From Haloimpatiens lingqiaonensis (GTDB taxonomy: Bacteria > Bacillota > Clostridia > Clostridiales > Clostridiaceae), in assembly GCF_901447495.1 (NCBI RefSeq), contig NZ_CABDWS010000023.1, positions 1 to 41,128 on the forward strand: DNA of 41,128 bases, in the 5' to 3' direction. Below, in pieces: positions 11,851 to 28,945 of the stretch. The notes beneath the pieces are model-generated. The model saw only the letters and a program-made list of their open reading frames with translations. It searched no databases and had not been told where the DNA came from. The position numbers were made by a program, and so were the translations under genes. Each line of letters begins with the position of its first letter. Position 1 is the stretch's first letter.

Positions 11851-12021
11851 TAATAATTAATTCATTGTTTTAAAATAATAAAATATTACTTGCAAAAGTA
11901 TTTTCATAATAGTACAATAATATTGTAAGTTAAATAAAAAATGGATGTAAACTTAATATTATAAATTCATGTATAAATTAGTAAATGTATTTATAATATT
12001 TTAAATTAAAATTGAATAGAT

Positions 12022-12186: not shown

Positions 12187-12250
12187 TATGTTTTAATCTT
12201 TCGGAGGGAGAGATTTCTTAGAGTTTATTGTATGAATAATATTGTTTTTT

Positions 12251-12567: not shown

Positions 12568-13659
12568 ATGAAGAGTAAACAAATATTTGCACTAGCAATG
12601 GTCATATCTATGGCATTAACTGGATGTGGAGCAAAGTCAAAAGGAAAAATGGATACTAAAAACAAATCCGCTATGTTTCAAGGCATGAAGAGTGAAATGA
12701 AGGGAAAAGACTCGGGTTCCATGGGAGATATGAAGGATAAAGGTATGGGTTCCATGGGTAAATTAACCATGTCAGAAGGTAAGGGTTATCCAGTTACCAT
12801 AAAGGATGTAATGGGAAATGAAGTTACTCTAAAAGAAAAACCAAAAAAAATAGCAGCAACCTCAGGAACATTTTTAGGACTTTTATATGCAGTAGGAGGA
12901 GAGTCTATTTGTACTGCTGATTTATCTGGAGGAAGTCCAGCGCCAAAGGGCACAGAAAAACTTCCTAAAATAGGACAAGTTTATAATCCAGATGTGGAAA
13001 AATTAATATCTCTTAAGCCGGATTTAGTAATTGCTCAATTTGGTCTTCAAAACAAATTAGTACCTGCCTTAAAACAGAGTAATATACCAGTTTTAGCTTT
13101 AAATATGAGAACCTATGATGATGTAATAGAAAATTTAAAAGTTGTAGGAAGAATAGCTGGTCATGAAGATAAAGCTGAAGATATTATAGCTAAAATGACT
13201 AAAGATAGAAAGGATATAGAAGATAAACTTCCAGAAAAATCAAAAAAAGTAGTTATTTTATATGCTACTTCTAAAGATATATCAGTAAAGCTTGAAAATA
13301 GTATAGCTGGTAATGTGGCAAAAATATTGAAATTAAACAATATAGCTGCAGGGAAAAAAGGAGAAGGAATGGGAGGAGAATCTATTCCATTTAGTATAGA
13401 AGAAATTGTAAAAGAAGATCCAGATGTTATATTGGTAACTAGTATGGTGAAATCTGATAAAAATGCAAAAGAAGTAATAGAAAAGCAGCTTGGAAAGGAT
13501 CCTGTATGGAAGAATTTAAAAGCAGTTAAAAATAATAAAATAGTATATCTACCACAAAGATACTTTTTATACAATGCAGGAGATAAATTTGTAGATGCAA
13601 TAGAATTTATGGCTAAAGGCGTATATCCAGAAATATACGGTGAGTTAAATGATAAATAA
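12568..13659 (+). CDS. btuF: ABC-importer substrate-binding lipoprotein, probably for corrinoids (BtuF-like)
   Basis: The 363-residue protein has a lipoprotein signal with LTGC (Cys20), so it is anchored on the outer face of the membrane. A Met/Lys/Gly/Ser-rich linker (about residues 28-75, about nine Met) precedes the type III periplasmic-binding domain, recognisable by KKIAATSGTFLGLLYAVGG, YNPDVEKLISLKPDLVIAQ and EEIVKEDPDVILVTS. This fold binds siderophores, haem or cobalamin. The upstream B12 riboswitch makes a corrinoid or its cobalt-containing precursor the likely ligand. AAAGGGGAG precedes the ATG. The permease ATG overlaps its last codons, so the two are translationally coupled. Confidence 0.78.
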   Translation: MKSKQIFALAMVISMALTGCGAKSKGKMDTKNKSAMFQGMKSEMKGKDSGSMGDMKDKGMGSMGKLTMSEGKGYPVTIKDVMGNEVTLKEKPKKIAATSGTFLGLLYAVGGESICTADLSGGSPAPKGTEKLPKIGQVYNPDVEKLISLKPDLVIAQFGLQNKLVPALKQSNIPVLALNMRTYDDVIENLKVVGRIAGHEDKAEDIIAKMTKDRKDIEDKLPEKSKKVVILYATSKDISVKLENSIAGNVAKILKLNNIAAGKKGEGMGGESIPFSIEEIVKEDPDVILVTSMVKSDKNAKEVIEKQLGKDPVWKNLKAVKNNKIVYLPQRYFLYNAGDKFVDAIEFMAKGVYPEIYGELNDK

Positions 13660-14662
13660 TATAAAAAACTGTAAAAAAAGTAATAGGAATTTTTACAAAA
13701 TAACTGTGATAATAGTATTTATTATATTAGCTATAAGTGCATTTTTTATAAGTAATGTGTATGGTAGTATGGAAATATCTATAAAAGATATATTTACCAT
13801 ATTAAAACACCCCAATAATTTAACTCCACAAGGCCTTGTTATATGGAATGTTAGAATTCCGAGAACTATTGTAGGAGTGTTGGTTGGAATTAACTTGGCC
13901 CTTTCTGGGGCAATGCTGCAGGGGGTAATGAGGAATCCCCTAGCAGACCCTGGAATAATAGGCATATCCTCAGGAGCTGGTCTTGCAGGCATGATTATAC
14001 TAATAATTTTTCCTCAATATCAATATTTAGTACCACCAGTTGCATTTGTAGGTGCCATGGGTGCAGCTATGATGATATATATACTTGCCTGGAAAGGTGG
14101 AATACAACCTATGAGAGTTGTATTGGCTGGAGTAGCAGTTTCAGCCATATTAGGTGCAGGCATATCTGCGCTTATGGTGTTTTTTAGCGACAGAGTGCAT
14201 GGAGCTATAATGTTCATGAATGGAGGATTATCTGCAAGAAGTTGGCCTCAAGTATATACTATTTTGCCTTATACTATGGTAGGCTTAGTGCTTGCTATTA
14301 TTATGTCCGAAAGGCTAAACATATTGGTATTAGGCGATGATACTGCAAGAGGATTGGGCCTAAATGTAGAATTAGTCAGATTAGAAATAACGGCTATAGC
14401 AGCTATGTTAGCAGCTAGTGCAGTGTCTGTAGTTGGACTTTTAGGATTTGTAGGGCTTATAATACCTCATACCACTAGGCTTATAATAGGTAGTGATTAC
14501 AAATATTTGCTTCCAGGTTCAGCGTTTTTAGGTGCAGCTGTAGTTGTGTTTTGTGATACTTTTGGAAGAACTATTTTTGCACCGGTGGAAATACCTGTAG
14601 GTATAATAATGGCACTTTTAGGAGCACCATTCTTTTTATATTTACTTAGAAAACAGTCGTAG
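13649..14662 (+). CDS. btuC: FecCD/BtuC-family ABC permease
   Basis: This 337-residue integral membrane protein has about ten helices. FecCD signatures include NVRIPRTIVGVLVGINLALSG, GVMRNPLADPGIIGISSGAG and GLLGFVGLIIPHTTRLIIG. The last motif forms the coupling helix to the ATPase. Its ATG overlaps the end of the binding-protein gene by 11 bp. With the upstream riboswitch and downstream ATPase it makes a complete type II importer; the FecD/BtuC distinction cannot be made from sequence alone. Confidence 0.85.
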   Translation: MINNIKNCKKSNRNFYKITVIIVFIILAISAFFISNVYGSMEISIKDIFTILKHPNNLTPQGLVIWNVRIPRTIVGVLVGINLALSGAMLQGVMRNPLADPGIIGISSGAGLAGMIILIIFPQYQYLVPPVAFVGAMGAAMMIYILAWKGGIQPMRVVLAGVAVSAILGAGISALMVFFSDRVHGAIMFMNGGLSARSWPQVYTILPYTMVGLVLAIIMSERLNILVLGDDTARGLGLNVELVRLEITAIAAMLAASAVSVVGLLGFVGLIIPHTTRLIIGSDYKYLLPGSAFLGAAVVVFCDTFGRTIFAPVEIPVGIIMALLGAPFFLYLLRKQS

Positions 14663-14690
14663 AAATATAAAATATTATTATGGGTGATAA

Positions 14691-15488
14691 ATGGGTGATA
14701 AAATGGATATTTTAACTGTAGAAAACATAAGGGTTAATTATGGTGAAAAGGAAGTATTAAAAGGAATAAATTTAAACATAGAACAGGGGAAAATAGTATC
14801 CATAATAGGACCTAATGGGTGTGGAAAGACTACGCTGCTTAGGGTTATGAGTAGAAATTTAAAGCCAAAGGCGGGAAATGTTTTATTAAATGGTGAGAAT
14901 ATATATAAATTAAAATCTAAGACCTTGGCAAAGAATATGGCTATTTTATCTCAGAATAATGGATGTCCTGAGGATATTTGTATAAGAGATTTAGTTGCCT
15001 ATGGAAGACATGCTCATAAAAAGATTTTTTCAGGATTTACAGATGAAGATGAAGGAATAATAGATTGGGCTATAAAAAGAACAGGACTTGATAATATAAA
15101 AGATAGAAAAGTAGCTACACTGTCAGGGGGAGAAAGGCAAAGAGCATGGATAGCTATGGCTATAGCTCAAAAACCAAAGATTCTTCTTTTAGATGAGCCC
15201 ACTACTTATTTAGACATAAGTCACCAATTAGAACTTTTAGATCTTATTAAAAGTTTAAATGAAGAGGAAAAAATAACAATAGTCATGGTACTTCATGATA
15301 TAAATGAGGCAGCTAAATACTCTCACGAACTTATTGTTATTAAAAATGGAGAGTTGCATTGTAAGGGAACTCCTTATGATATTATAAATGATGAAATGCT
15401 TAAACAGGTATTTAGAGTAGAAGCTGAGATAAATGAAGATATTAACACTAAAAAGCCAGTTATATATCCAATAAGGGTTTTTAGTTAA
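14691..15488 (+). CDS. btuD: ABC importer ATPase, FecE/BtuD type
   Basis: A 265-residue ATPase with Walker A GPNGCGKTT (about 40-48), Q-loop LSQNNG, signature LSGGERQRAWIAMA and Walker B ILLLDEPTTYLD, then the H-loop LHDINEA. The start is ambiguous: GGGTGATAAATGGGTGATAAAATGG contains two tandem SD-ATG units, giving starts at 14691 or 14703; the second has slightly better spacing and yields MDILTVENI, the usual N-terminus. It powers the permease encoded just upstream (28-bp gap). Confidence 0.88.
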   Translation: MGDKMDILTVENIRVNYGEKEVLKGINLNIEQGKIVSIIGPNGCGKTTLLRVMSRNLKPKAGNVLLNGENIYKLKSKTLAKNMAILSQNNGCPEDICIRDLVAYGRHAHKKIFSGFTDEDEGIIDWAIKRTGLDNIKDRKVATLSGGERQRAWIAMAIAQKPKILLLDEPTTYLDISHQLELLDLIKSLNEEEKITIVMVLHDINEAAKYSHELIVIKNGELHCKGTPYDIINDEMLKQVFRVEAEINEDINTKKPVIYPIRVFS

Positions 15489-15506
15489 ATAATTTAATTT
15501 TCGCAT

Positions 15507-15643
15507 TTATCCAGAGACTTACCTGCCGTAACACTCCCACTTCTAACAAAGTAGGAGATAACGGCAGCTACGTCCCTGGATAACGATCTCTAACCTTCAG
15601 TTGGAGTAAAAAACTCCATCTGAAGCTAAGAGCTCTGTTTATA
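15507..15643 (+). repeat. Two-hairpin dispersed repeat, copy 2
   Basis: Same element as at 10951, same orientation, with a few differences: TTATCCAGAGACTTACC at the left end, AAAGTAGGAG in the inner stem of hairpin I (one stem change) and one extra A in the loop of hairpin II. It starts 18 bp after the btuD-like stop. Confidence 0.9.
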
Positions 15644-15767
15644 AAGTAAAAATTTAAAAATTAGAATTAATGACTATCTGGAGTTGAAATTTGAGAATTG
15701 ATAATGAATGATAAAACTCCTTTAAAGAAGTTTTTGAAAATATGAATTTTAGCTTGACGTAATTATT

Positions 15768-15811
15768 AAAAAATCAGCTACAGGAAATCATATATCTGTA
15801 GCTGATTTTTA
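15768..15811 (+). terminator. Terminator between the importer genes and cobN
   Basis: AAATCAGCTACAG and CTGTAGCTGATTT make a 13-bp perfect stem around about 12 bases, followed by T residues. It lies about 60 bp before cobN, so cobN needs read-through or its own promoter. No second B12 riboswitch is visible in this spacer. Confidence 0.8.
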
Positions 15812-15870
15812 CTTTAATCAAGAAGTAATTAGTGTTATTTTATAAATTTGTATAGAAAGAGGGGATGAAT

Positions 15871-18800
15871 TTGAAGATTACAGTGGTATCAGTTTCTACC
15901 AGTGTTTTTGGGGAAATTATAAAGGCCTGTGAATATATTAATAAAAGTTATGATAATATATTGGATTTGAATTTATATTATGTATCAAGGGGCTTGAAAG
16001 ATGATAGATTAGAAAGTATGATGTGCCATATACAAGAAGCGGATATGTGTATAATAGACTTGATGGGTGCACCAGATAAAATTGTTAAGACAACTTATGA
16101 TTCTCTAGAAAATTCAAAAGCACAAGTAGTTATTATAGGCAGACAAGGTAGGGAATATTTGAAGCTGGGAAGTTTAACTTCAAAGGATATGAGTATGAAT
16201 AAAAAGAAGGGTGAAAGCAAAAATCCCGATGCAAAAGCTATGGATAAAATGATAAACATGGCAGAAAAAATGGGAAAAATCATGCCCGTTGGAAAACTAA
16301 ATCATATGAAGAATTATATACACATAGGAAGATATTGGAATAATGCCGGGTTTGAAGATATGAAGAATTTATTATATTTAATACTTAGGGATTATGGAAA
16401 TTATAAAGGAATTCCTAAGCCTTTAGAACCAGTAAAAAGAGAAGACATAAGTATATGTAATCCAGAAACTATGGAGTTTTTCAATAGTTATAAGGAATAT
16501 ATGAAAAAATATGGTTTTGATAAAGAAAGACCTACTGTTGCTTTAATATTTTATGGTCACAGTTACCCTAGTAAAACATCTGACTGCGTTGGAGAAATAT
16601 GCCGTAGAATAAAAGAGTTTGCAAATGTGGTACCAATAGCTTTTTCTAGTGTTTTAAAAATGGATGGGAATAAACTTAGAAATATGCTGGAGGATGCCTG
16701 TGGTAAAAAGGTGGATTTAATATTAAATTTTATGTCCTTCAGATTAGGAGCAGGTCCTATGGGAGGAGATGCCAAGAAGGCCGTAGAAACTCTTGAAAAA
16801 ATAGAAGCTCCTATGATTCATCCATTTTTTATGACTAAAAAAACAGAGGAAGAATGGATGGAAAGTGCTCAGGGAGTAAGTTCTTCAGAATTTTTAATTT
16901 CTGTAATGTTGCCTGAATTAGACGGAGCTATAGAAACTTATCCCATAGGGGCAATGAAATCTAATGGATTAGATGAGGAATTTAAAATAGAATTAAATGA
17001 ACTGAATATTATAGAAGAAAGAGTTGAAAAACTTATAGGTAAAATAAAGGGATGGCTTAAGCTTAGAGAAAAGCCTAATAAAGATAAAAGAGTAGCTATA
17101 GTATGCTACAATTATCCACCGGGAGAAGATAATTTATTTGGAGGGGCTTTTTTAGATACATTTAAGTCTATAGAAAAGATATTAGAGGCCTTAAAAAATG
17201 AAGGATATAATACTGAAAGCTTAAACAGTGAAGAATTGATGAATAAATTTTGTGGTAAGATAGTTAACTCTGGAAGATGGGTTTCGGAAGAAAATATTCA
17301 CAACATGATAAAATATAGCTGTGAAAAATATAAGAAAAATATTAAGGGCAGGAATTTTTATTTAGATATGATTAAGCAGTGGGGAAAGATACCTGGTAAT
17401 GTGATGACTTTGGATAATAATTTTTTGATACCAGGAATAGTAAATGACAATGTTTTTATAGGATTACAGCCTTCTAGGGGAATCCATGAAAATACAGATA
17501 AAGTATATCACGATAAATCCATGCTTCCGCACCATCAATATATAGGATTTTATAAATGGATTAAAGAAGAATTTAAGGCAGATGTAGTTATACATGTGGG
17601 AACTCATGGCACAATAGAATTTTTAAAGGGAAAAGAATGTGGCATGTCTGGGGAGTGTTTCCCTGATATGCTACTTTATGATATTCCCCATTTGTATCTA
17701 TATTTCATAGGAAATCCAGCAGAGGCTGTGATAGCTAAAAGAAGAAGCCATGCAGTAATGGTAAGTTATAGTCCGCCAGCTTTTATGGAAGGAGAACTTT
17801 ATGAGGAATATTTATGGCTTCAAAAATCCATTGAGGAATACCACCAATGTGAAAGATTAGATCCAAAAAGATGTAGCCAAGTGTTAGAAAATATTAGAGA
17901 AAAAGCTAAAGAGGTGAATATGAATTTTGAAGACTTAGAGGAGTTGGAGAGGGAACTTTATAGGATGAATCGTTCCCTAATACCAAAGGGCTTACATGTA
18001 TTTGGTGAAGGATATAATGAAGACGAGGCTTTTAATTATATTAAGTTTATTCTTAGATATGATAGAGGTGATATAAAGTGTATAAGGAGAATTGTATGTG
18101 AGAATAGATACTTGGATTATGATAAATTAATAGAAGAAAATTCTGCAGAAATTTTAGCTTCACTGGATAGTGAGGTGCAGTGGATTATGGAGAATTTCAA
18201 GAAATATGGTGACTTAAGTTTTATAAATAGTGGTGAAAAACATTATGAAAAAACTTGTATAGAGGATATGAAAAAATCTATAGAATATGGAAAAGAGCTT
18301 AGTTTAAATATAGTTAAAAACTTTGAGATAGAAGGTTTAATTAAGGCTATGCAAGGAAAATATTTAAAAGCATCACTGGCAGGAGATATAATTAGAAATC
18401 CTGATATATTGCCTTCAGGTTATAATTTATATCAATTTGATCCAACATTAGTACCTACAGAAACAGCTTATAAAAGGGGAGCTAGCATAGCTAAAAATAC
18501 CATAGAATTATACTACAAGCAAAATGGAAAGTATCCATCTAGTACTGCAGTAATATTATGGGGACTTGAAACCTCTAGAACCGGAGGGGAAACTATAGGG
18601 CAAATACTGTATTATTTAGGAGTTAAGCCTGTTAAAACTGCAAGTTCCTTTGAAAGTGACTATGAAATAATACCTATTGAAGAATTGGGAAGGCCTAGAA
18701 TAGATGTGGTAATAAACATGTGTGGATTCTTTAGGGATATGTTCCCTAATTTACTGAAGGATTTGAATGATATATTTGCCCATATATATAATTTAGATGA

Positions 18801-19623
18801 AACTTTTGAAGAAAATTATTTTAAAAAGAATTCTCAAATTATATATGATAAAATTATAAAAAATGGAACCAGTGAGGAAATTGCAAAAGAACTTTCTATA
18901 TCTAGAATATTTGGACCTAAAGAAGCGGAGTATGGTACAGGAGTCACTAAGCTATTAGAAACAAAGGCTTGGGAGGAAGAAGAGGATATAGGTAAAAACT
19001 TTATAGATAGTTTGAAATATGTATATAGCAATAATTTTAGAGGTAAGGAAATAGATGGACTGTATAGAAGTAACTTAAAAACTGTGGATGTGGTATCGCA
19101 AGTAAGAAGTAATCATGAATATGAAGTTACTGATTTAGACCACTATTATGAATTTTTCGGTGGACTTTCTAAATCTGTTGAAATGGTTAAGGGGAAAAAA
19201 CCTGCTATGTATATAAGTGATACTACGGGAGAAAGGTTAGAAACTGAAACAGTAGATAAATCCATAAATAGGGGTATAAGAACTAGAGTTTTAAATCCTA
19301 AATGGATTGATGGTATGTTAGAGCATAAATACCATGGAGTTCAAAAAATAGCTGAGAGGTTTGAAAATATATTAGGGCTAGCAGCCACTACTAATGGTGT
19401 GGAACAGTGGATATACAATGATTTATATGAAAAGTATATTGAAGATGAAAAATTAAGGAAAAGATTGAAGGAAAACAATTCATATGCATATATGACCATA
19501 GTGGAGTGGATGCTAGAGTATAATAAAAGAGAATATTGGCAGGCAAGCAAAGAGCAGCTTGAAAAGCTTAGAAATGTATATTTGGATATAGAAGGAAATA
19601 TAGAGAGCTTTCAAGAGGAATAA
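15871..19623 (+). CDS. cobN: CobN-like large subunit of cobalt/magnesium chelatase
   Basis: The protein is about 1,250 residues, the normal CobN/ChlH size. Family segments include VIHVGTHGTIEFLKGKECG, LPSGYNLYQFDPTLVPT, ILWGLETSRTGGETIGQILY and LGRPRIDVVINMCGFFRDMFPN, and the end with NPKWIDGMLEHKYHG. CobN binds the corrin or porphyrin and inserts the metal with two AAA+ partners (CobS/CobT or ChlI/ChlD). Neither partner is present here. The TTG at 15871 is preferred, because AGAGGGG ends directly against the ATG at 15865. Residues about 108-145 form a Met/Lys-rich insertion. Position after a B12-regulated importer argues for corrinoid metabolism, but its real substrate is not proven by sequence. 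Confidence 0.9.
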   Translation: MKITVVSVSTSVFGEIIKACEYINKSYDNILDLNLYYVSRGLKDDRLESMMCHIQEADMCIIDLMGAPDKIVKTTYDSLENSKAQVVIIGRQGREYLKLGSLTSKDMSMNKKKGESKNPDAKAMDKMINMAEKMGKIMPVGKLNHMKNYIHIGRYWNNAGFEDMKNLLYLILRDYGNYKGIPKPLEPVKREDISICNPETMEFFNSYKEYMKKYGFDKERPTVALIFYGHSYPSKTSDCVGEICRRIKEFANVVPIAFSSVLKMDGNKLRNMLEDACGKKVDLILNFMSFRLGAGPMGGDAKKAVETLEKIEAPMIHPFFMTKKTEEEWMESAQGVSSSEFLISVMLPELDGAIETYPIGAMKSNGLDEEFKIELNELNIIEERVEKLIGKIKGWLKLREKPNKDKRVAIVCYNYPPGEDNLFGGAFLDTFKSIEKILEALKNEGYNTESLNSEELMNKFCGKIVNSGRWVSEENIHNMIKYSCEKYKKNIKGRNFYLDMIKQWGKIPGNVMTLDNNFLIPGIVNDNVFIGLQPSRGIHENTDKVYHDKSMLPHHQYIGFYKWIKEEFKADVVIHVGTHGTIEFLKGKECGMSGECFPDMLLYDIPHLYLYFIGNPAEAVIAKRRSHAVMVSYSPPAFMEGELYEEYLWLQKSIEEYHQCERLDPKRCSQVLENIREKAKEVNMNFEDLEELERELYRMNRSLIPKGLHVFGEGYNEDEAFNYIKFILRYDRGDIKCIRRIVCENRYLDYDKLIEENSAEILASLDSEVQWIMENFKKYGDLSFINSGEKHYEKTCIEDMKKSIEYGKELSLNIVKNFEIEGLIKAMQGKYLKASLAGDIIRNPDILPSGYNLYQFDPTLVPTETAYKRGASIAKNTIELYYKQNGKYPSSTAVILWGLETSRTGGETIGQILYYLGVKPVKTASSFESDYEIIPIEELGRPRIDVVINMCGFFRDMFPNLLKDLNDIFAHIYNLDETFEENYFKKNSQIIYDKIIKNGTSEEIAKELSISRIFGPKEAEYGTGVTKLLETKAWEEEEDIGKNFIDSLKYVYSNNFRGKEIDGLYRSNLKTVDVVSQVRSNHEYEVTDLDHYYEFFGGLSKSVEMVKGKKPAMYISDTTGERLETETVDKSINRGIRTRVLNPKWIDGMLEHKYHGVQKIAERFENILGLAATTNGVEQWIYNDLYEKYIEDEKLRKRLKENNSYAYMTIVEWMLEYNKREYWQASKEQLEKLRNVYLDIEGNIESFQEE

Positions 19624-19749: not shown

Positions 19750-19798
19750 TTGCTTAAAATTAAAGAAATTTAAAAATAATACAATGGTGGTAGTTAAT

Positions 19799-20797
19799 AT
19801 GATAAAACAAGAAGATATAGCCAAAATTTTAAATGTTTCAAGAACTACTGTGGCTAGGGCTTTAAATGGCAGTGAAAATATAAAACCTGAAACAAAAGAA
19901 AAGATTATAGAACTTGCTAAAGAATTGGGATATAAAAAGAATCCAATAAGTAGTTCCTTAGCCAGTAAGAAGAAAAAAAATGTATATGCTTTTATAATAA
20001 AATCAAAAAATAAATATTATACAGAAGAAATAGAAAGAGGACTTAAGAGCGCTGAAAAGGAATTTAAATTTTATGGGTTTAATATAAATATAATAAAAAC
20101 AGATATTGAAACCCCAGAAAAGCAGCTAGAGCAGTTAAAAGCTGCAGTAAATGAAGATGTACAGGGGATAATAATAATTCCTTTGCTAAAAGAAAAGGTG
20201 AAAGAAGTAAGAAATCAAAATCCTAATATAGTTTTTACAACACTGGATATTAATATAGATCAATCTATATTTCATGTAGGACCTAATTATTTTAAATCCG
20301 GTAGAATTGCAGCGGAAATACTTATAAATACCCTAGAAGAGAAGTCTAAGGTTTTGGTTTTAGATACGGTAGATGATAGGATTTCCTCTAAGCTATACAT
20401 GGATGGTTTTTTAAGTAGAATGTCAGAAGAAAAAAATAATCCTATGATAGGTCCTGTGTATTCAGAGCACTTAATGAATGATTTAGATGATATATTGGAA
20501 AAACACATGACAAAAGAAGTAAAATCAATATATGCTACTAGATTTTTAACAGATATAGTGAAATATATAGGATATAGATACAACATTCCCATGAAAATTG
20601 TAGGTAATGGTATGTCAGATGATATGAAAATTTTAATACTAGAAAAAAAAGTGCTGGCTACAGTGGTGGAACAACCTTACGAAGAGGGATATTTGGCAGG
20701 GAAGTTTATGTTTGAGAAATTATATAAGGATATGAATTTTAAAGAAGCTTCTCATATTATGGAAAGTAAAATAATAGTTAGAGAAAGTCTTTTTTAA
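19799..20797 (+). CDS. LacI-family transcriptional regulator
   Basis: This 332-residue repressor has an N-terminal helix-turn-helix (EDIAKILNVSRTTVARALNG) and hinge, then a periplasmic-binding-like sensor domain with the VGPNYFKSGRIAAEIL and QPYEEGYLAGKFM segments common in sugar-responsive LacI regulators. The ATG at 19799 is chosen because GGTGGTAG lies ahead of it; an ATG at 19784 has no SD. It is followed after 31 bp by the FAD oxidoreductase gene and then, after a 365-bp control region, by the nan genes. The two TGTTCACGAGAACA palindromes there have the central CG typical of LacI operators, so it is the probable repressor of sialic-acid uptake; its inducer is unknown. Confidence 0.9.
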   Translation: MIKQEDIAKILNVSRTTVARALNGSENIKPETKEKIIELAKELGYKKNPISSSLASKKKKNVYAFIIKSKNKYYTEEIERGLKSAEKEFKFYGFNINIIKTDIETPEKQLEQLKAAVNEDVQGIIIIPLLKEKVKEVRNQNPNIVFTTLDINIDQSIFHVGPNYFKSGRIAAEILINTLEEKSKVLVLDTVDDRISSKLYMDGFLSRMSEEKNNPMIGPVYSEHLMNDLDDILEKHMTKEVKSIYATRFLTDIVKYIGYRYNIPMKIVGNGMSDDMKILILEKKVLATVVEQPYEEGYLAGKFMFEKLYKDMNFKEASHIMESKIIVRESLF

Positions 20798-20828: not shown

Positions 20829-22394
20829 ATGAAAATAAAAGAACATATGAAAACCGATGTATTAGTTGTTGGAGCTGGAATTGCAGGTATAAGTTCAGCT
20901 ATACAAGTGGCTAAAGCAGGAAAAAGTGTTACAGTAGTGAGCAGTGGTAGGTTTTGCTCTGGAGCCAGTTTTTATCCAGGAACCTGGGGGCTTGGAATGG
21001 TAGTGGCAGAGGATGAAAAAGATAAAGAGGACTTTGTCAATGCCATAATGGAAGTGGGATGCCACATTCCCAATAAAAAAATGGTAAAAACCTTAATAGA
21101 TAATGCTGAAAAAGACATAAAAGAATTTATGGATTTAGGGATTCAATTTAGAAGACCTATAAGTGGAGAAACTGTAACACCTTGTTTTGATAAAAAGCCA
21201 AGAAAATGGTATGGATTTGATTTTAAGACAGCTATTAAAGCCTTTGATAAATTAAAATCATTAGAAAATGTAAGTATTGTTGAGAATACTAGTTTAATTA
21301 AAATATTGAAGGATGAAGAGGAGGCTTTTTCTTCAGCAATATTTATAAGTGATTCAGAAGAATATGTACAAATTTCTGCTAAAGCACTTATAATAGCCAG
21401 TGGAGGGTTTACGAATATATATAAATACAACCTTAGCACAGAAGATATGGCGTTGAATGCACATATCCAAGCATTAGAGGTGGGATGTAAACTCACTAAT
21501 ATGGAATTTATTCAATTCATTCCAGCACATATAGAACCAAATTATAAAACTATATTTAATGAAAGAGTTTTTAGTTATATAAAATTAGAAAATTCAAAGG
21601 GAGAAGATATTTTCCAGGATAATTTAGATGAAAATTTAAATGAAAAGGCTATATTAAAAGAAAGATCCACTCATGGCCCATTTACATGCAAATTAAATTC
21701 CAAATATGTGGATATAACTATGTTTAAGGAATATCTAAAAAGCTGCCAAGGTGTGGGTTTTTATTATCCAAAGGATATACTTAATATAAAAGATACTCTT
21801 ATATATAATTATTTTATGTGGCTAAAGGATAAAAATGCTTTAAATGAAAATAAGATAATAATACTTCCTTTTGCCCATGCAGCCAACGGTGGTATAGAAA
21901 TAAATGAAAAGGCCCAAACGGCTATAAAAGGCATATATGCTGCAGGTGAAGTAACTGGAGGGGTACACGGTGCAGATAGAATTGGAGGCTTGTCTACGGT
22001 TAATGCTATGGTATTTGGTAAAATAGCAGGAAAAGAGGCTATAAAATATATAGAGGAAAAAACTGTTGATGAAAAAGTCTATAATGATATTAATGAAGTA
22101 TTCCATTTTAGTAATAAACAAGAATCAACCATAGAGCCAGATTGGGTTATAAATGAAATAAGAGAGATTATGTATAGAAATGCTAGCATAATAAGGAATA
22201 GGAAGTCCTTAGAAAATGCAGTAGGAACTATTAATAATATAGAGGATAAATTTAACTTGTACACATATGTATCACAAAATAAGCATTGTAAAAAAGCATT
22301 TATAGCTAATAATTATATTAATACTGCAATAGTGGTGCTAAAGGCCATGATAGATAGAAATGAAAGTGTAGGATCGCATTATAGGGAAGACTAA
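20829..22394 (+). CDS. FAD-dependent oxidoreductase of the fumarate reductase/aspartate oxidase type
   Basis: The 521-residue protein has an N-terminal dinucleotide-binding GAGIAGISSAIQVAKAG and the flavin-site segment GVHGADRIGGLSTVNAMVFG near residues 380-400, which defines the SdhA/FrdA/NadB superfamily. The strict catalytic Arg/His motifs of fumarate reductase (for example RDVVSR) are not evident; the region reads STHGPFT instead. A C-terminal helical domain follows. No signal peptide, haem or flavin-transfer motif is seen, so it is cytosolic. It shares an operon with the LacI gene (AGGAGG before the ATG), not with nanA. The substrate is unknown; L-aspartate oxidase is unlikely because nadA/nadC are absent nearby. 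Confidence 0.78.
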   Translation: MKIKEHMKTDVLVVGAGIAGISSAIQVAKAGKSVTVVSSGRFCSGASFYPGTWGLGMVVAEDEKDKEDFVNAIMEVGCHIPNKKMVKTLIDNAEKDIKEFMDLGIQFRRPISGETVTPCFDKKPRKWYGFDFKTAIKAFDKLKSLENVSIVENTSLIKILKDEEEAFSSAIFISDSEEYVQISAKALIIASGGFTNIYKYNLSTEDMALNAHIQALEVGCKLTNMEFIQFIPAHIEPNYKTIFNERVFSYIKLENSKGEDIFQDNLDENLNEKAILKERSTHGPFTCKLNSKYVDITMFKEYLKSCQGVGFYYPKDILNIKDTLIYNYFMWLKDKNALNENKIIILPFAHAANGGIEINEKAQTAIKGIYAAGEVTGGVHGADRIGGLSTVNAMVFGKIAGKEAIKYIEEKTVDEKVYNDINEVFHFSNKQESTIEPDWVINEIREIMYRNASIIRNRKSLENAVGTINNIEDKFNLYTYVSQNKHCKKAFIANNYINTAIVVLKAMIDRNESVGSHYRED

Positions 22395-22523
22395 AAACTT
22401 AATAAATTTATGATTTAGTCTATAGTTACAAGAATAAAGGGTGTTGTGGAAGGGAGCTATAAAAGTATATAATTTTTATAAAATAAAAGTATATAAAAAA
22501 ATTTAAAAAATTAATATTTACAC

Positions 22524-22552
22524 TTGAAAATGTTCACGAGAACATATATAAT
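22524..22552 (+). promoter_or_regulatory. nan promoter with operator O1 in the spacer
   Basis: TTGAAA (22524-22529) and TATAAT (22547-22552) with a 17-bp spacer. The palindrome TGTTCACGAGAACA occupies 22531-22544, inside the spacer, where bound repressor would block polymerase. The leader to nanA is then about 200 nt and carries a second operator. Confidence 0.8.
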
Positions 22553-22692
22553 ATTCTTAGAAAATAAAAATATTAAGAATTTTCAAAGGCTTGATGTAAA
22601 GGATAACAAAACTTCAATGCTTTAGAAAATTTAGTCTATGAGCAAAAAAATGTATCTATTTTAAAAAAGTTATAATTTTTTTTAACAAATAA

Positions 22693-22706
22693 TGTTCACG
22701 AGAACA
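22693..22706. promoter_or_regulatory. nan operator O2
   Basis: Exact second copy of TGTTCACGAGAACA, 162 bp downstream of O1 (centre to centre). It could serve as an auxiliary operator for looping or as a roadblock. A weak CcpA-like site (CGAAAGCGCATTAT, 22714-22727) follows directly. Confidence 0.75.
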
Positions 22707-22759
22707 AAACACACGAAAGCGCATTATACAATAATTTTAAATTTAGAGGAGGACTTGAG

Positions 22760-23626
22760 ATGAAAGGAATTTTTTCAGCACTATTAGTACCATATGATGA
22801 AAACGGAAACATTAAAGAAGAGGGACTTAGACAGCTAGTTCGTCACAATATTGATGTATGTGGAATAGATGGTCTTTACGTTGGAGGAAGTACAGGAGAA
22901 AACTTCATGCTTTCTACTGAAGAAAAGAAAAGAATATTCGAAATTGTCAAGGATGAGGCCAAAGATCAGGTTAAATTAATTGCACAAGTAGGATCTATAA
23001 ACTTAAAAGAAGCAGTTGAACTTGGAAAGTTTGCTACAGCTCTAGGATATGATTCACTATCAGCAGTAACACCTTTTTACTATAAATTTGACTTTAGCGA
23101 AATAAAAAATTATTATGATACAATCATAAGAGAAACTGGAAACAATATGATAATATACTCAATACCATTCTTAACAGGAGTTAACATAACACTAAATCAA
23201 TTTGCTGAGTTATTTGAAAATGAAAAAGTAATAGGAGTTAAGTTTACAGCAGCAGACTTCTATTTATTAGAAAGATTAAGAAAGGCTTTCCCAAATAAAT
23301 TAATATTCTCTGGATTTGATGAAATGCTTTTACCAGCAGTAGTTTCAGGTGTAGATGGAGCTATAGGAAGTACATTTAATGTAAACGGTAAAAGAGCAAA
23401 AGAAATCTTTGAATTAGGTAGAAAAGGTGAAATAGAAAAAGCTTACCAGGTACAACACGTTACTAATGACTTAATTGAAGGAATATTAAGCAATGGTTTA
23501 TATCAAACTATTAAGGAAATATTAAAGGATAAGGGTGTGGATGCAGGATATTGTAGACAACCTATGAAGAAATTAAATGAAGAAGGAATTAAGTTTGCAA
23601 AAGAATTATCTGCAAAGTACCTATAA
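22760..23626 (+). CDS. nanA: N-acetylneuraminate lyase
   Basis: This 288-residue class I aldolase of the DapA/NanA superfamily cleaves N-acetylneuraminate to N-acetylmannosamine and pyruvate. The carboxylate-binding motif GGSTGENF is at 42-49, the conserved Tyr at 133 ([10 protein letters not shown]), and the Schiff-base Lys161 in GVKFTAAD. These specific sequences separate NanA from DapA. Length is typical. AGAGGAGG precedes the ATG. It is the first gene of the sialic-acid operon and lies about 210 bp after the operator-containing promoter. Confidence 0.94.
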
Positions 23627-23790: not shown

Positions 23791-25278
23791 ATGAAGGCAT
23801 CATTTCAAATGTTGGATTATATAGTTTTAGTTGTATATCTTTTATTTGTACTGTATGTAGGTGTTAGAGTAGCTAAAAAAGAAATGAAAGGCAAAGAATA
23901 TTTTAAAGGTGATGGAACAATTCCATGGTGGGTTGCAGCCGTTAGTTTATTTGCAACAATGCTAAGTCCCATTTCTTATTTAGCTTTAGCTGGACGTTCA
24001 TTTAAAACAGACTGGTCAGCTTGGGTGGCTCAGCTTGGTATATTTATAGCTGTTCCATTAACTATAAAATATTTCTTACCAGTTTATAAGAAACTTGATT
24101 TAGATACAGCATATGAATACTTAGAAAGAAGATTTAATAAAAGTTTAAGATTAGTAGGAAGTATAATGTTTATAATTTACCAAGTAGGTAGAATGTCTAT
24201 AATCATGTATTTACCAGCATTGGCATTATCAATAGTTACAAAAATAAACATAAATTTATTAATAGTTCTTATGGGTGTTATAGCAATTGTATATTCATAC
24301 GTAGGCGGAATTAAATCAGTATTATGGACAGATTTTATACAAGGTGTAGTGTTATCATTAGGTGCCGTATTTGTAGTAGTTTATATGGCATTTACAATTA
24401 AAGGTGGATTAGGTGAAGTAGTTAGAGTAGGGGTGGCGGATGCTAAGTTCTTACATTTATCACAAATGCTTAACTTAAATATATTTAAAGAGGGCTTCTT
24501 TATAGTACTTATAGGAGCAGGTTTGTCAACGCTTTCATCTTATGTATCAAGCCAAGATATGGTTCAAAGATATACAACAACTACTGATCTTGGAGAAATG
24601 AAAAAGATGACATATTTAAATGGTGCTTTATCTATAGGTATAGCAACTGTATTTTTCTTCATAGGAACAGGACTATATGTATTTTATCAACAAAACCCAG
24701 CATTATTAATATCAAAAGCGGAGGACCAAGTTTTTGCAAGTTATATAGTTAGTCAATTACCAGCAGGTATATCAGGACTATTATTAGCTGGAGTATTTGC
24801 AGCAGGCCAATCAACTTTATCTACAGGTTTAAATAGTGTGGCTACAAGCTGGACTTTAGATATACATAAGTTAATAAAAGGTGATGTTAACAATGATGAA
24901 GCAACTAAGCTTGCTAAAATTCTTTCTTTAGTAGTTGGAATAGTATCTATAGTAGTTTCTATAGTTTTAGCTCACTCTGATTTGAAATCTGCATATAGCT
25001 GGTTCAATGGATTTATGGGACTAGTTCTTGGAGTTGTAGGAGGTCTTTTTGGACTTGGAATATTTACAAAGAAGGCTAACTCTAAGGGAGCTGTGGCAGG
25101 ATTTATAGTGGCTGCAGTATTAACTGTAGCGGCAAAATACTTTACAACAGTTACATTCTGGATGTATTCAGTTATAAGCATAGTTTCATGCATGTTATTT
25201 GGATATATATTTAGTTTAATATTTAAAGATGATGAAAAGAAAAACTTAGATAACTTAACTATATATGGGGATAAGTAG
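23791..25278 (+). CDS. nanT: Sodium:solute symporter, probable sialic-acid transporter
   Basis: The 495-residue, about 13-helix protein belongs to the SSS family: WWVAAVSLFATMLSPISYLALAGRSF near the N-terminus, GGIKSVLWTDFIQG, and GLSTLSSYVSSQDMVQRY with AGVFAAGQSTLSTGLNSVATSW carrying the Ser/Thr residues near the sodium site. SSS transporters import sialic acid in several clostridia (C. difficile NanT). The position between nanA and nanE supports the same substrate here; the sequence alone does not fix it. GGAGGG precedes the ATG. Confidence 0.85.
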   Translation: MKASFQMLDYIVLVVYLLFVLYVGVRVAKKEMKGKEYFKGDGTIPWWVAAVSLFATMLSPISYLALAGRSFKTDWSAWVAQLGIFIAVPLTIKYFLPVYKKLDLDTAYEYLERRFNKSLRLVGSIMFIIYQVGRMSIIMYLPALALSIVTKININLLIVLMGVIAIVYSYVGGIKSVLWTDFIQGVVLSLGAVFVVVYMAFTIKGGLGEVVRVGVADAKFLHLSQMLNLNIFKEGFFIVLIGAGLSTLSSYVSSQDMVQRYTTTTDLGEMKKMTYLNGALSIGIATVFFFIGTGLYVFYQQNPALLISKAEDQVFASYIVSQLPAGISGLLLAGVFAAGQSTLSTGLNSVATSWTLDIHKLIKGDVNNDEATKLAKILSLVVGIVSIVVSIVLAHSDLKSAYSWFNGFMGLVLGVVGGLFGLGIFTKKANSKGAVAGFIVAAVLTVAAKYFTTVTFWMYSVISIVSCMLFGYIFSLIFKDDEKKNLDNLTIYGDK

Positions 25279-25354: not shown

Positions 25355-25487
25355 TAATTTCAAATGTAACATAAGTTTGTATTTTGGCTTAATACAAAAG
25401 TATTTTATTAAAATATGCTTTATTATTTTAATTATGAAAAGCAATAATAGTGCGTATATTAAAGATTATAGAGGGAGAGGCTATGCT

Positions 25488-25940
25488 ATGATAATTGATA
25501 GAATTAATAATATGGAACTTTATGGTGAGGCTGAAAGCAATATAAGTAAGGCATTGAAATTTATGAAAGAACACGATTTTTCTAAGGATGAAAAAGGTGT
25601 TCATAAAGTGGATGGAGATAATCTTTATTATGTAGTTGCAGAATATCAAACTAAAGATTTAGAAAAAGGTTTTTGGGAATCTCATAAGAAATATATTGAT
25701 GTACACTATATGTTAAATGGACAAGAAAAATTATTATATTCTAATTTTAAAAATATGGAAATAGAAAAAGATTATAATGAAAATGACGATGCTTATATTT
25801 TAAAAGGTGATAGTGAAGGGGAAGTGACTATAAAAGAGGGAACTTTTGTATTGTGCTATCCAGAGGATGTACATATGACAGGTATAAAAGTAAAAGATTC
25901 TGAGGATATAAGAAAAATTATATTCAAGATAGCTATTTAG
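25488..25940 (+). CDS. YhcH/YjgK/YiaL (NanQ-like) beta-barrel protein
   Basis: The 150-residue protein matches the cupin-like YhcH family: MIIDRINNMELYGEAE at the N-terminus, the FWESHKKYIDVHYMLNGQEKL segment with metal-binding His residues and Glu, and CYPEDVHMTGI near the C-terminus. E. coli NanQ (YhcH) accelerates interconversion of sialic-acid anomers. The ATG at 25488 is chosen because GAGGGAGAGG lies 7 bp ahead; an upstream in-frame ATG at 25377 would add a 37-residue extension foreign to the family. It lies in the sialic-acid operon, which supports a NanQ-like role. Confidence 0.88.
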   Translation: MIIDRINNMELYGEAESNISKALKFMKEHDFSKDEKGVHKVDGDNLYYVVAEYQTKDLEKGFWESHKKYIDVHYMLNGQEKLLYSNFKNMEIEKDYNENDDAYILKGDSEGEVTIKEGTFVLCYPEDVHMTGIKVKDSEDIRKIIFKIAI

Positions 25941-25988
25941 TGAGATAATTTTATGACTTTGTATAAGTGTTATATTTAGGAGATGATT

Positions 25989-26687
25989 ATGATGAAAGAA
26001 GATTTAATGGATAAAATAAAAGGCGGTTTGATAGTATCTTGCCAAGCATTAGAAGATGAGCCACTTCATAGTTCTTTTATAATGTCCAAAATGGCTCTTG
26101 CAGCTAAAATTGGAGGCGCAGTGGGCATAAGGGCAAATACTGTAGAGGACATAAAAGCTATAAAGGGCCAAGTGGATTTACCTATAATAGGAATAATTAA
26201 GAGAAATTATGGAGAATGTTCTGTTTATATAACGCCTACCATGAAAGAAGTGGATGAATTGTGTGAAGAAGGAGTTCACATAATTGCAATAGATGCTACT
26301 AAAAGGGAAAGACCAGATGGAAAGAAGCTTTGTGAATTTGTAAAAGAAATAAAAAGTAAATATCCAAATCAATTATTAATGGCGGACATATCTGATCTAG
26401 AAGAAGCAAAATTAGCAGAAGCATATGGCTTTGATTTTGTGGGGACTACTATGCATGGATATACTGAATATACTGAGGGAATGGATATACAAGATAATGA
26501 TTTTGAATTTCTAAGACAGGTTTTAGATAATGTAAAAATACCTGTAATTTCAGAAGGAAAAGTAGACACACCAGAAAAAGCAAAAAAATGTTTGGAGCTA
26601 GGAGCTTTAGCAGTGGTTACAGGAGGAGCTATTACTCGTCCACAATTGATAACTAAAAAGTTTGTTGATGAAATAAACAATAAATAG
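25989..26687 (+). CDS. nanE: N-acetylmannosamine-6-phosphate 2-epimerase
   Basis: This TIM-barrel epimerase of about 232 residues converts ManNAc-6-P to GlcNAc-6-P. Family motifs are [25 protein letters not shown] with the catalytic Lys, [19 protein letters not shown], and [16 protein letters not shown] carrying the catalytic Glu, ending with [13 protein letters not shown]. Of three possible ATGs, the one at 25983 directly abuts AGGAG; the one at 25989 has proper spacing and was chosen. NanK follows after 12 bp. Confidence 0.96.
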
Positions 26688-26699
26688 GAGGAACAAAGG

Positions 26700-27614
26700 G
26701 TGAAATATTTAGCTGTGGATATAGGTGGAACAGGAATAAAATACGGGATAGTAGAAGATAATGGCAATGTGCTAGCTCTTTATAATATGGATACAGAGGC
26801 ATCCAAAGGAGCAAATTGCTTAATAGAAAAGGTAAAGGATATAATAAGATTTCTACTAAAGGAACACGGCGAAGATATAGATGGTATAGGCATAAGTACT
26901 GCAGGACAAGTGGATAGGGTAGCAGGGGAAATTATATTTGCAACAGATGCAATACCTGGTTGGACAGGTGTAAAGCTAAAAGAAATTATAGAAAAGGAAT
27001 TTTCATATCCTTGCTATGTGGATAATGATGTAAACTGCGCAGCCTTAGGAGAAATGTGGGCAGGAGCCGCAAAAGGTGAGAAAAACTTCTTATGTCTTAC
27101 ATTAGGTACAGGCATAGGTGGAGCCATAGTATTAAATGGAGATGTGTTTACAGGAAGTAGTTATTCAGCAGGAGAATTTGGACATATGAATTTGTATCCT
27201 AATGGTATGGAATGCAATTGCGGACATAGGGGTTGCTATGAAAGATATGCATCTACATCAGCTTTAGTAAAATTTGCACAAGAAAAGGCAGGAACAATAG
27301 AAAAATTAAATGGAAAAATAATATTTGAAAGAGCTAATAATGGAGAAAAGATATATAAAGACATAGTTAATCAATGGACTTATAATGTTGCATTAGGACT
27401 AAAAAGTCTCGTACACATATTTAATCCTTCCCTTATTATAATAGGTGGAGGGGTATCGGCTCAGGGAAATTTAATTACAGATCTAATTAAAGAACATCTG
27501 AATAATATGATAATGCCTTCCTTTAATAAAAACTTAATGTTAAAGGTTGCTAGCTGCGGTAACAAGGCTGGAATGTTAGGGGCAGTATATGGATTGAAAA
27601 ACAATAAAAAATAA
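26700..27614 (+). CDS. nanK: ROK-family N-acetylmannosamine kinase
   Basis: The 304-residue ROK sugar kinase phosphorylates ManNAc at C6 with ATP. Motifs: phosphate loop DIGGTGIKYG (residues 6-15), GIGIST-type segment and catalytic Asp in DNDVNCAALGE, GTGIGGAIV, the ROK EFGHM motif, and the zinc site CNCGHRGCYE. Start is GTG, preceded by AGGAGG at correct distance. General glucokinase activity is the alternative, but operon position with nanA and nanE makes NanK the best call. It is the last gene before a strong terminator at 27991. Confidence 0.92.
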   Translation: MKYLAVDIGGTGIKYGIVEDNGNVLALYNMDTEASKGANCLIEKVKDIIRFLLKEHGEDIDGIGISTAGQVDRVAGEIIFATDAIPGWTGVKLKEIIEKEFSYPCYVDNDVNCAALGEMWAGAAKGEKNFLCLTLGTGIGGAIVLNGDVFTGSSYSAGEFGHMNLYPNGMECNCGHRGCYERYASTSALVKFAQEKAGTIEKLNGKIIFERANNGEKIYKDIVNQWTYNVALGLKSLVHIFNPSLIIIGGGVSAQGNLITDLIKEHLNNMIMPSFNKNLMLKVASCGNKAGMLGAVYGLKNNKK

Positions 27615-27631
27615 CTATTAAATATATATTG

Positions 27632-27903
27632 TGAAGTAAGTGCCGTAGGAAAAAGCTGCCTTTAATTCCGTGATAAAATTGAAATTTTGGACTGTGAACA
27701 GTACGCTAAGAACTTCTAAATGTTTTGAAATTTAAATCCCCTAAAGCCTTCAAACTCGCTCGTACCTCACTCAAGCAATGAAGGCTTCTTAACGGGGCTT
27801 TAAATTTCAAAACAAAGAAGTTCTAAAGCTAGTTCAATAGTCCAAAATTTCAATTTTATCACTCCATTAAAGGCAGCTTTTTCAGTTACAGAATGCTTGC
27901 TTC
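27632..27903. repeat. Giant imperfect palindrome (about 270 bp)
   Basis: The arms, roughly 27632-27753 and 27776-27903, are reverse complements with scattered mismatches and small indels. Matching blocks include AAAAAGCTGCCTTTAAT, GTGATAAAATTGAAATTTT, AGAACTTCT, GTTTTGAAATTTAAA and AAGCCTTCA. The loop is about 22 bases. No ORF crosses it. As RNA it would make a rod of over 110 bp. It follows nanK and precedes the operon terminator, so it would be in the 3' part of the nan mRNA. Confidence 0.88.
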
Positions 27904-27928
27904 GTGGGTAAGAGATAGCCTACTAAAG

Positions 27929-28260
27929 GATGATTTTCCTCCACTTCGTTACGGAAAATCTTTAATTGAATATAAGCAATAGTATAGTGGGAAAAGGTAT
28001 AACTGATTCATTAAATGAAGTGGTTATACCTTTTCTTTTAAGTGCTTAAAAAATCTTTTATTGGCGGTAGCCAGGGAAAATATAGAAATATCAAATATTA
28101 AATATTAAATATCAAATAATGTTGAAATTTCTATGGAATTTCTTAAATTATAATTTGTGGAGGAAGTACGAAGTGACAATTGAGAATTAAGTAAGAGGTG
28201 AAAAGTAAGAAGTAAGAGTGAGTGAGGATTTTCCTCCACTATGTTCTGGAAAATTTTTAA
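27929..28260. repeat. Two copies of a GATTTTCCTCCACT...GGAAAAT repeat and AT-rich filler
   Basis: ATTTTCCTCCACT..GTT.CGGAAAAT occurs at about 27931-27960 and again, diverged, at about 28227-28255; each can form a short hairpin ATTTTCC/GGAAAAT. In between are the nan terminator, ATCAAATATTAAATATTAAAT short tandem repeats (about 28089-28120) and an AGTAAGAAGTAAGAG purine-rich run (about 28203-28219). No gene is visible. Confidence 0.5.
27991..28040 (+). terminator. Terminator of the nan operon
   Basis: GAAAAGGTATAAC and GTTATACCTTTTC form a 13-bp stem, with TTCAT/ATGAA pairing inside the loop, followed by TTTT. It is the first strong terminator after nanK. Confidence 0.8.
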
Positions 28261-28304
28261 TTAAATAAAATGTAATAGTAAAACAAGCTATACGGCAAAA
28301 AGTA

Positions 28305-28355
28305 AGAAGTTGAGCACTTAAAAAGTTCTTTTGGCGTAGCCTGCTGATTTATAAT
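28305..28355. repeat. GCACTTAAAAA...GCTGATTTATAAT repeat, copy A
   Basis: AGAAGTTGAGCACTTAAAAA, then TTTTGGCGTAGCC and GCTGATTTATAAT. It matches 40568-40618 with few differences, where it borders a truncated recombinase gene. A shorter relative is at about 28041-28078 (AGTGCTTAAAAAATC...GGCGGTAGCC). Confidence 0.65.
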
Positions 28356-28368
28356 AAAAGACTTATTA

Positions 28369-28504
28369 TATAAACAGATCTCTAACCTTCAGATGGAGTT
28401 TTTACTCCAACTGAAGGTTAGAGATCTTTATCCAGGGACGTAGCTGCCGTTATCTCCCACTTTGTTAGAAGTGGGAGTGTTACGGCAGGTAGTCATCGGA
28501 TAAA
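28369..28504 (-). repeat. Two-hairpin dispersed repeat, copy 3 (inverted)
   Basis: Reverse complement of the element at 10951. In this copy hairpin II is fully paired at its base (AGATCTCTAACCTTCAG with CTGAAGGTTAGAGATCT), unlike the other three, which have mismatches there. It may therefore be closest to the ancestral sequence. It lies in gene-free DNA. Confidence 0.9.
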
Positions 28505-28651
28505 GTGGTTGGAATAATCTATTTTTAGTTAAAACTTAAAATAAAAATGCAATTTGAAATTATTTATTAAGGTTATTACGGTTTTATGGGTTAAGTCAAA
28601 GCATAGCTATTTTTGCCCCTATCGGTCTGATGACTTAGTAGCCCTTTAAGC

Positions 28652-28698
28652 AATAGTTCTTTAAAAATTCAGCAAAGCTGAATTTTTAAAGAACTATT
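28652..28698. repeat. Perfect 22-bp inverted repeat with 3-base loop
   Basis: Two exact 22-base arms (starting AATAGTTCTTTAAAAATT and its complement) separated by AAA. It is too long and lacks the T-tract layout of a plain terminator. It sits beside further repeats in the gene-free region; no ORF is nearby. Confidence 0.8.
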
Positions 28699-28710
28699 AA
28701 CTTTTATTTA

Positions 28711-28793
28711 TTCACAAATTAATTATAAAAAACTCCTTGAGTTTTATCCTTAACTATTATCCTTAACTATTACTTCTTACCTTTTCCCCTCTA
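28711..28793 (-). repeat. AACTCCTTGAGTTTTATCC dispersed repeat, copy B
   Basis: Inverted relative of the block at 9141-9230: CACAAATTAATTATAAAA, AACTCCTTGAGTTTTATCC, then CTTAACTATTA twice in tandem and ACTTCTTAC. The remaining DNA to 28945 is AT-rich with small hairpins (TGCC/GGCA at about 28820) and no gene. Confidence 0.6.
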
Positions 28794-28945
28794 CAAATAA
28801 GATTTATACAAACAATTGCCTTACGGCAAAATAAATTGAATTTTAGTTACTGCTTTATTTTAACAAGTATACTATAACTTTTCGAAAGGCTCCGCCTAAA
28901 AAATATTATGAGCCCCTTATTTAATATTTGATATTTATTATTTTA

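Follow-up and report, generated by a model that had tools for sequence, protein, structure and literature searches.

The promoter region of the sialic-acid (nan) operon of Haloimpatiens lingqiaonensis contains two identical 14-mers, TGTTCACGAGAACA, which are predicted to be the operators of a LacI-family protein encoded 1.7 kb upstream. From comparison of this locus with loci of related and distant bacteria, the protein would be the repressor of the nan genes, and we give this reading a probability of about 0.88. The two sites are confined to one promoter region, the first of them lies within the promoter itself, and they are inherited together with one clade of LacI proteins.

Predicted operators and genes of the nan locus

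The window, which is the whole stretch of DNA analysed (41,128 nucleotides), is a single contig (C23) of a 3.29-Mb genome that is 99.76% complete. The features relevant to the control of the nan genes are as follows.

19799..20797, plus strand: LacI-family regulator, 332 aa, HTH helix SRTTVARAL, Peripla_BP_4 effector domain, proposed nan repressor (PF00356, PF13407, tree, structural model)
20829..22394, plus strand: FAD-dependent oxidoreductase of the fumarate reductase/aspartate oxidase superfamily, 31 bp downstream of lacI
22524..22529, plus strand: -35 element TTGAAA (11/12 consensus letters together with the -10 element)
22531..22544, no strand assigned: predicted operator O1, TGTTCACGAGAACA, in the 17-bp spacer; same position in genome G174 and locus L090
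22547..22552, plus strand: -10 element TATAAT (promoter scan)
22693..22706, no strand assigned: predicted operator O2, TGTTCACGAGAACA, in the nan leader, the ATG of nanA following after 53 bp
22760..23626, plus strand: nanA, N-acetylneuraminate lyase (NF003164, 465 bits, cut-off 281; TIGR00683, 443.4 bits, cut-off 382)
23791..25278, plus strand: sodium/solute symporter, SSS (TIGR00813, 202.7 bits, cut-off 184)
25482..25940, plus strand: YhcH family protein (TIGR00022, 122.8 bits, cut-off 45.5; NF040884, 92.6 bits, under the cut-off of 160)
25986..26687, plus strand: nanE, N-acetylmannosamine-6-phosphate 2-epimerase (NF002231, 330.8 bits, cut-off 189)
26700..27614, plus strand: ROK-family kinase (PF00480, 228.7 bits; no NCBIfam cut-off reached)

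A first-pass annotation of the window had placed a LacI gene upstream of the nan promoter. This gene is indeed present (19784 or 19799 to 20797, the alternative ATG at 19784 giving a protein of 337 aa), and the flavoprotein gene, which is probably co-transcribed with lacI, sits between it and the promoter. Judged by context, the SSS symporter is a probable sialic-acid transporter and the ROK-family kinase a probable NanK, and the YhcH protein is a possible sialic-acid anomerase.

The two identical 14-mers of the first-pass annotation, the first of them between TTGAAA and TATAAT, were both found exactly, before nanA and at a start-to-start distance of 162 bp. O1 is located wholly inside the 17-bp spacer ATGTTCACGAGAACATA and is extendable to the 16-mer ATGTTCACGAGAACAT (22530–22545); the O2 copy is not longer than 14 letters. 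LacI-family operators are defined in section 9 of PMC4052901 as even palindromes with a central CG. The 14-mer has this form with one unmatched pair beside the centre: the central CG described earlier is present and the TGTTC and GAACA arms pair, but the palindrome is imperfect, the A/A pair beside the CG being unmatched. The promoter pair has 11 of the 12 consensus letters and is the best among four promoter-like sites of the region, a count that is not above that of shuffled sequences (mean 2.8, sd 1.6). The TATAAT at 22671–22676 was considered as part of a second promoter immediately before O2; this was rejected, because the hexamer is not conserved in G174 and the scan gave no plus-strand promoter there. 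No riboswitch or other known RNA was found in the nan leader with Rfam at the gathering threshold.

With up to 2 mismatches allowed, the 14-mer has four matches in the window, which are the two sites on both strands, compared with a mean of 0.11 and a maximum of 2 in dinucleotide shuffles (n = 100). In the whole genome, the degenerate pattern TGTTCNCGNGAACA occurs exactly at just these two places, the search for further copies proposed in the first-pass annotation having returned no other, and the reversed control does not occur at all. These results indicate that the two sites are real and not a product of chance. When 1 mismatch was allowed, four further places were found, compared with two for the reversed control. 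The central CG is lost at three of these four places, and the three examined in context (all but C53:18947) lie within long stop-to-stop frames on other contigs, with no nan-like neighbours by eye. No wider regulon was seen in this whole-genome scan for exact and 1-mismatch sites.

Several other features of the window were observed. Two cre-like strings with 2 mismatches are present in the nan leader and at the start of nanA (22595–22608 and 22798–22811), through which CcpA could possibly exert an additional catabolite control. Past the nan operon, about 1.3 kb (27615–28945) contain no separate reading frame above 44 aa. A cobalamin riboswitch (12012–12195, 128 bits) precedes a gene stretch (12568–19623) that encodes a Peripla_BP_2-type ABC transporter and a 1252-aa chelatase subunit resembling CobN. 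A RAGATH-18 RNA match (167–227, 59 bits, cut-off 44.9) is located right before a gene at 282–2456 that is helicase-like by eye. In Clostridium sp. KNHs214 (G174), additional genes lie between the CobN-like gene and lacI, and the flavoprotein gene is reduced to a 134-aa frame, with lacI and both operators kept (L062:869–7024). The flavoprotein of the window is 40% identical to that of an operon in genome G015 (L061:16188–17807), the two LacI-linked lyase operons being otherwise different; a role of these flavoproteins in sugar-acid metabolism is possible.

The LacI protein and its orthologues

The linked regulator has a LacI/GalR-family HTH (PF00356, 43.0 bits, cut-off 27) and a periplasmic-binding-like effector domain (PF13407, 66.4 bits, cut-off 35.1), and not the RpiR-type HTH (PF01418). 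The structural model of the protein (mean pLDDT 89.9) aligned with sugar-binding proteins and a putative LacI regulator; for the best six matches, Z was 27.0–27.5 over 260–271 residues, with an rmsd of 2.4–2.8. In the model, the chain ends at 332 aa with the core domain and has no extension past it, so that there is no obvious room for a C-terminal tetramerisation helix, which E. coli LacI carries. The genome encodes five LacI-type proteins; RTTVARAL is the recognition helix of the linked one only, and no site with 0–1 mismatch was found at the loci of the other four.

Arg248, in the loop after strand 241–246, is present in all ten members of the clade described below and in none of eight sister proteins with the same helix in the alignment. 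This residue occupies the place of the Asn-Asp of other LacI and ribose-binding proteins, which is presumably a ligand contact; MAFFT aligns it with the Asn of this pair, and the register shifts by up to two residues in phmmer alignments with ribose-binding proteins. Arg248 suggests an acidic inducer, either Neu5Ac or a phosphorylated intermediate, without discriminating between the two. E. coli NanR is a Neu5Ac-binding protein that has arginines close to the carboxylate of this ligand (PMC11364026).

Close orthologues of this LacI were found in four other genomes among the 206 of the family: G174 (96% identity), G029 (50%), G020 (50%, with a partial second lacI copy) and G015 (48%). The next best match in these 206 genomes has only 28% identity. 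In the wider class, an orthologue at E <= 1e-60 was present in one of 391 sampled genomes, the window's own, which indicates a patchy distribution. The exact 14-mer occurs in three of the 206 family genomes, namely that of the window (G000), G174 and G029, and each of these has the nan LacI. It precedes the linked operon in G029 and does so twice in G174. For G020, TGTTCACGAGAACT and a 2-mismatch copy are located ahead of the linked operon, and for G015, TGTTCGCGAGAATA is found twice in this position.

Further orthologues came from a scan of one genome per species, in which the helix pattern was part of the search and which yielded 27 loci; three of these, L089, L091 and L099, coincide with the G174, G015 and G020 loci. 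Five loci come from other bacteria: L090, a metagenome-assembled genome (MAG) named Candidatus Epulonipiscium (LacI 56% identical); L092, Cysteiniphilum halobium; L094, C. marinum; L093, a MAG contig labelled Caedibacter that is nearly identical to C. marinum; and L095, Vibrio sinensis (LacI 36% identical). An exact TGTTCNCGNGAACA is found next to lacI or nanA at each of the five. L090 repeats the promoter architecture of the window, TTGAAA-ATGTTCGCGAGAACATA-TATACT with a 17-bp spacer, and has a second site before nanA. In Cysteiniphilum and Vibrio, unlike in the window, the site precedes lacI itself, and the repressor may thus control its own gene as well. Eleven other loci of the scan (L104–L114) match in the N-terminal region only and have no site with 0–1 mismatch.

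The ten LacI orthologues (G000, G174, G029, G020, G015, L090 and L092–L095) form one clade with a support of 95/93, and a branch separated them from all other sequences in 92% of 200 bootstrap trees; locus L098 was left out of the tree because of a stop in its translated stretch. Because two pairs are nearly identical (L093 with L094, and G174 with G000), the ten represent about 8 independent cases. At every one of the ten loci, the palindrome (0–1 mismatch) either lies next to lacI or belongs to the promoter region of the linked nan/transport operon. It lies within 400 bp of lacI in eight of the ten, compared with 0 of 100 shuffled flanks for each. In G000 and G174, it lies beyond the flavoprotein gene, and lacI has no operator of its own. 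The clade loci include four transporter types, and their hosts range from Clostridium to Cysteiniphilum and Vibrio. These results support the proposal of the first-pass annotation that the 14-mers are operators of the linked LacI, as the site follows this protein into unrelated bacteria.

A NanA-type or NanA-like lyase is encoded near lacI at nine of the ten clade loci. Five of them (G000, G020, L090, L092 and L095) encode, in the same gene run, a NanA that exceeds the NF003164 cut-off; in G174, L093 and L094, the lyase was recognised by its similarity to the NanA of the window. G015 has a lyase-like gene just under the NanA cut-off (279.4 vs 281), and the sensed sugar acid could differ there. 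For G029, no nanA was found at E <= 1e-60, and the locus consists of LacI, operator and ABC transporter only. For G020, the 1-mismatch site precedes the ABC transporter genes and nanA is the last gene in the cluster; within 1.5 kb of this nanA there is no site with up to 2 mismatches, only a 3-mismatch string.

After its ABC transporter genes, G029 keeps AGTTCGCGAGAACT (2 mismatches), close before an inverted repeat (L059:8734–8747), and G020 has the 3-mismatch string and nanA at the corresponding place (L060:14982–14995). AGTTCGCGAGAACT is possibly the relic operator of a lost nanA. G020 also contains a tandem repeat of the lacI-operator-ABC segment (L060:7613–14048), both copies of which keep both sites; the first permease copy is broken at an undetermined base, and an assembly effect is possible.

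Control loci, distant relatives and alternative explanations

The nanA survey covered 26 loci in 23 family genomes, with three loci from genomes that have this LacI (G000, G174 and G020), and sites were sought up to 1.5 kb on either side, or less at contig ends (L066, L070 and L081 are short). G000 and G174 have a site at nanA. None of the 23 nanA loci of the 20 genomes that lack this LacI has a site with 2 mismatches or fewer, and the palindrome conserved in genomes that lack the LacI, which the first-pass annotation had named as evidence against a LacI operator, was thus not seen there. In addition, at least 13 of these 20 genomes have an RpiR-type HTH no more than 5 kb from nanA, compared with none of the three with both this LacI and nanA; the figure is a lower bound because a number of nanA contigs from the remaining genomes are short. 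This comparison is in line with the earlier suggestion that a LacI-type repressor would be a solution distinct from the RpiR and GntR types. Loci of other LacI proteins were also free of sites with 0–1 mismatch (0 of 25, all of them included in the DNA count; the six that were translated whole entered the alignment and tree, the other 19 being on the minus strand).

The degenerate TGTTCNCGNGAACA is not exclusive to this LacI, as it occurs in 27 of the 206 family genomes. Three of the 27 are those with the exact 14-mer and the nan LacI (G000, G174 and G029), 14 have the copy TGTTCACGTGAACA before uxaC-like genes, whose product reads by eye as glucuronate isomerase (UxaC), and in the other 10 the copy examined lies near other genes. 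TGTTCACGTGAACA is a perfect palindrome (L003, L004, L005, L010, L013 and others). In five of the 14 genomes (G003, G004, G014, G032 and G050), it is found beside a different LacI with the helix SHTTVSRAL; at the other nine loci, the 3-kb stretch showed no recognisable LacI gene. The LacI linked to uxaC-like genes would thus be a case of a similar helix and a similar site serving another pathway.

Eight distant proteins from Spirochaetales, Caloramator, Lachnospiraceae and Clostridia (26–34% identity) have the helix (S/T)RTTV(A/S)RAL. The palindrome (0–1 mismatch) is present at seven of these eight loci, and within 400 bp of lacI at six; no such site was found at L102. Because the helix pattern was part of the search, these loci show that the site goes with the helix and not that the helix is unusually conserved. 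Their neighbours encode other ABC transporters, an amidohydrolase and a URO-D-like protein. At L096, L097, L098, L101, L103 and L115 (Spirochaetales, Lachnospiraceae, Caloramator and a clostridial MAG), the same helix type and the palindrome stand beside unrelated-looking gene sets. On this sequence evidence, the DNA-reading part of the protein would be older than its target.

It is very improbable that an RpiR- or GntR-type nan regulator binds the palindrome and that the LacI is a bystander controlling the flavoprotein gene. An RpiR-type NanR does control the nan genes of C. perfringens (PMC4509764), and a survey of the genome for regulators of the RpiR type gave one RpiR-type HTH, on another contig (C65). 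However, nanA loci that have an RpiR gene nearby do not carry the palindrome, which accompanies the LacI into other phyla, and the 13-letter C. perfringens NanR consensus given in PMC4509764 is not matched anywhere in 22395–22760, even when 2 mismatches are allowed. The truncation of the flavoprotein gene in G174, where the LacI and both sites are retained, argues against a LacI dedicated to this gene. An assignment of the sites as cre elements of the global regulator CcpA is extremely improbable. Although cre sites are also palindromes with a central CG and four other LacI-type proteins are present in the genome, neither site lies within 2 mismatches of TGWAARCGYTWNCA, which we take to be the cre consensus, and the genome has only two exact copies of the palindrome instead of the many expected for a global regulator.

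The first-pass annotation had also considered that the 162-bp spacing would allow looping. The distance itself is exact, two sites occur in one promoter region at five of the ten clade loci (G000, G174, G020 with the second site at 2 mismatches, G015 and L090), and three of the five spacings are near whole 10.5-bp turns (14.95, 6.95 and 4.95). However, the spacings vary (162, 157, 73, 52 and 14 bp). The window is out of phase (15.43 turns), differing from its close relative G174 by 5 bp, which is half a helical turn; G015 has 1.33 turns; and G029 and L095 have a single site with 0–1 mismatch. Because the spacings do not share one phase and the protein ends at its core domain, a repression loop of O1 and O2 held by a LacI tetramer is unlikely, and looping as the main mechanism was rejected on the basis of the variable, half-turn-shifted spacing and the missing C-terminal extension. 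It is also quite unlikely that the ligand of the LacI is another sugar acid and that its control of nan genes is incidental, as might be read from G029, which has no nanA, and from the G015 operon, which combines a family-5 ABC transporter with the lyase just under the NanA cut-off and the flavoprotein. Against this stand the five loci with NanA above the cut-off in the same gene run, the NanE of L090 and the sialic-acid anomerase above its cut-off in L095, and G029 has AGTTCGCGAGAACT where G020 has nanA, as if nanA had been lost.

Proposed control and comparison with known systems

Control of the nan operon by the linked LacI through the two 14-mers would take the form of repression rather than activation. 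Repressors bound within a promoter spacer classically act by sterically excluding RNA polymerase. When sialic acid is absent, a LacI dimer on O1, between the -35 and -10 elements, would block RNA polymerase, and a second dimer on O2 might act as a roadblock or raise the local occupancy; assuming a transcription start about 7 bp past the -10 element, O2 would be some 130 bp inside the leader. Sialic acid entering via the symporter would provide an acidic inducer, most likely Neu5Ac and next ManNAc-6-phosphate. Its binding to the sugar cleft, with a contact predicted via Arg248, would release the LacI and permit transcription of nanA-SSS-yhcH-nanE-kinase.

We see an even chance that the protein is a natural one-component sensor of sialic acid of the LacI type, and that it was passed laterally together with its operator, as one cassette, between clostridia and gammaproteobacteria, taking the place of an RpiR regulator and joining four transporter types. 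The helix and palindrome would then be older than the ligand, since the spirochaete, Lachnospiraceae and Caloramator relatives keep both beside other genes. A LacI-type regulator would be another independent solution for the control of sialic-acid genes, and a clean case of a DNA-binding module that is retained through changes in both the sensed sugar and the pathway under control. It would also offer a ready repressor/operator pair for Neu5Ac biosensors, which are currently built artificially (PMC13188862).

GntR and RpiR proteins are named as regulators of sialic-acid genes in PMC4509764, PMC13188862 and PMC4746261, and they are the only natural ones named in the available text of PMC13188862. 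Sialic-acid clusters also contain an AraC gene in R. gnavus (PMC4988440) and fadR- or glpR-type genes in Actinobacteria (PMC8754123). Among the matches listed from the open-access PMC literature (main texts without supplementary tables), none was recognised as describing LacI-type control of sialic-acid genes, and the terms 'sialic', 'neuramin' and 'nan' are absent from the main text of a LacI regulon survey (PMC4052901).

The window LacI resembles the LacI/GalR local repressors of sugar operons described in that survey in its HTH, its periplasmic-binding-type domain and its even, central-CG palindrome over a neighbouring catabolic promoter. It differs in clade and target pathway from the LacI linked to uxaC-like genes in family genomes. 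The RpiR-type NanR of C. perfringens and S. pneumoniae likewise controls nan genes but belongs to an unrelated protein family with a different DNA motif; SpNanR binds ManNAc-6-P (PMC12713135). The GntR-type NanR of E. coli and Bifidobacterium breve is likewise a nan repressor of an unrelated family, the operator of the E. coli protein being a GGTATA repeat (PMC8012715). The synthetic Neu5Ac sensor strain MG-Sphnx (PMC13188862) also pairs a LacI DNA-binding domain with a binding-protein-type Neu5Ac domain. Whereas that sensor is a man-made fusion of the LacI DNA-binding domain to a Neu5Ac-binding protein, the LacI of the window would be its natural counterpart.
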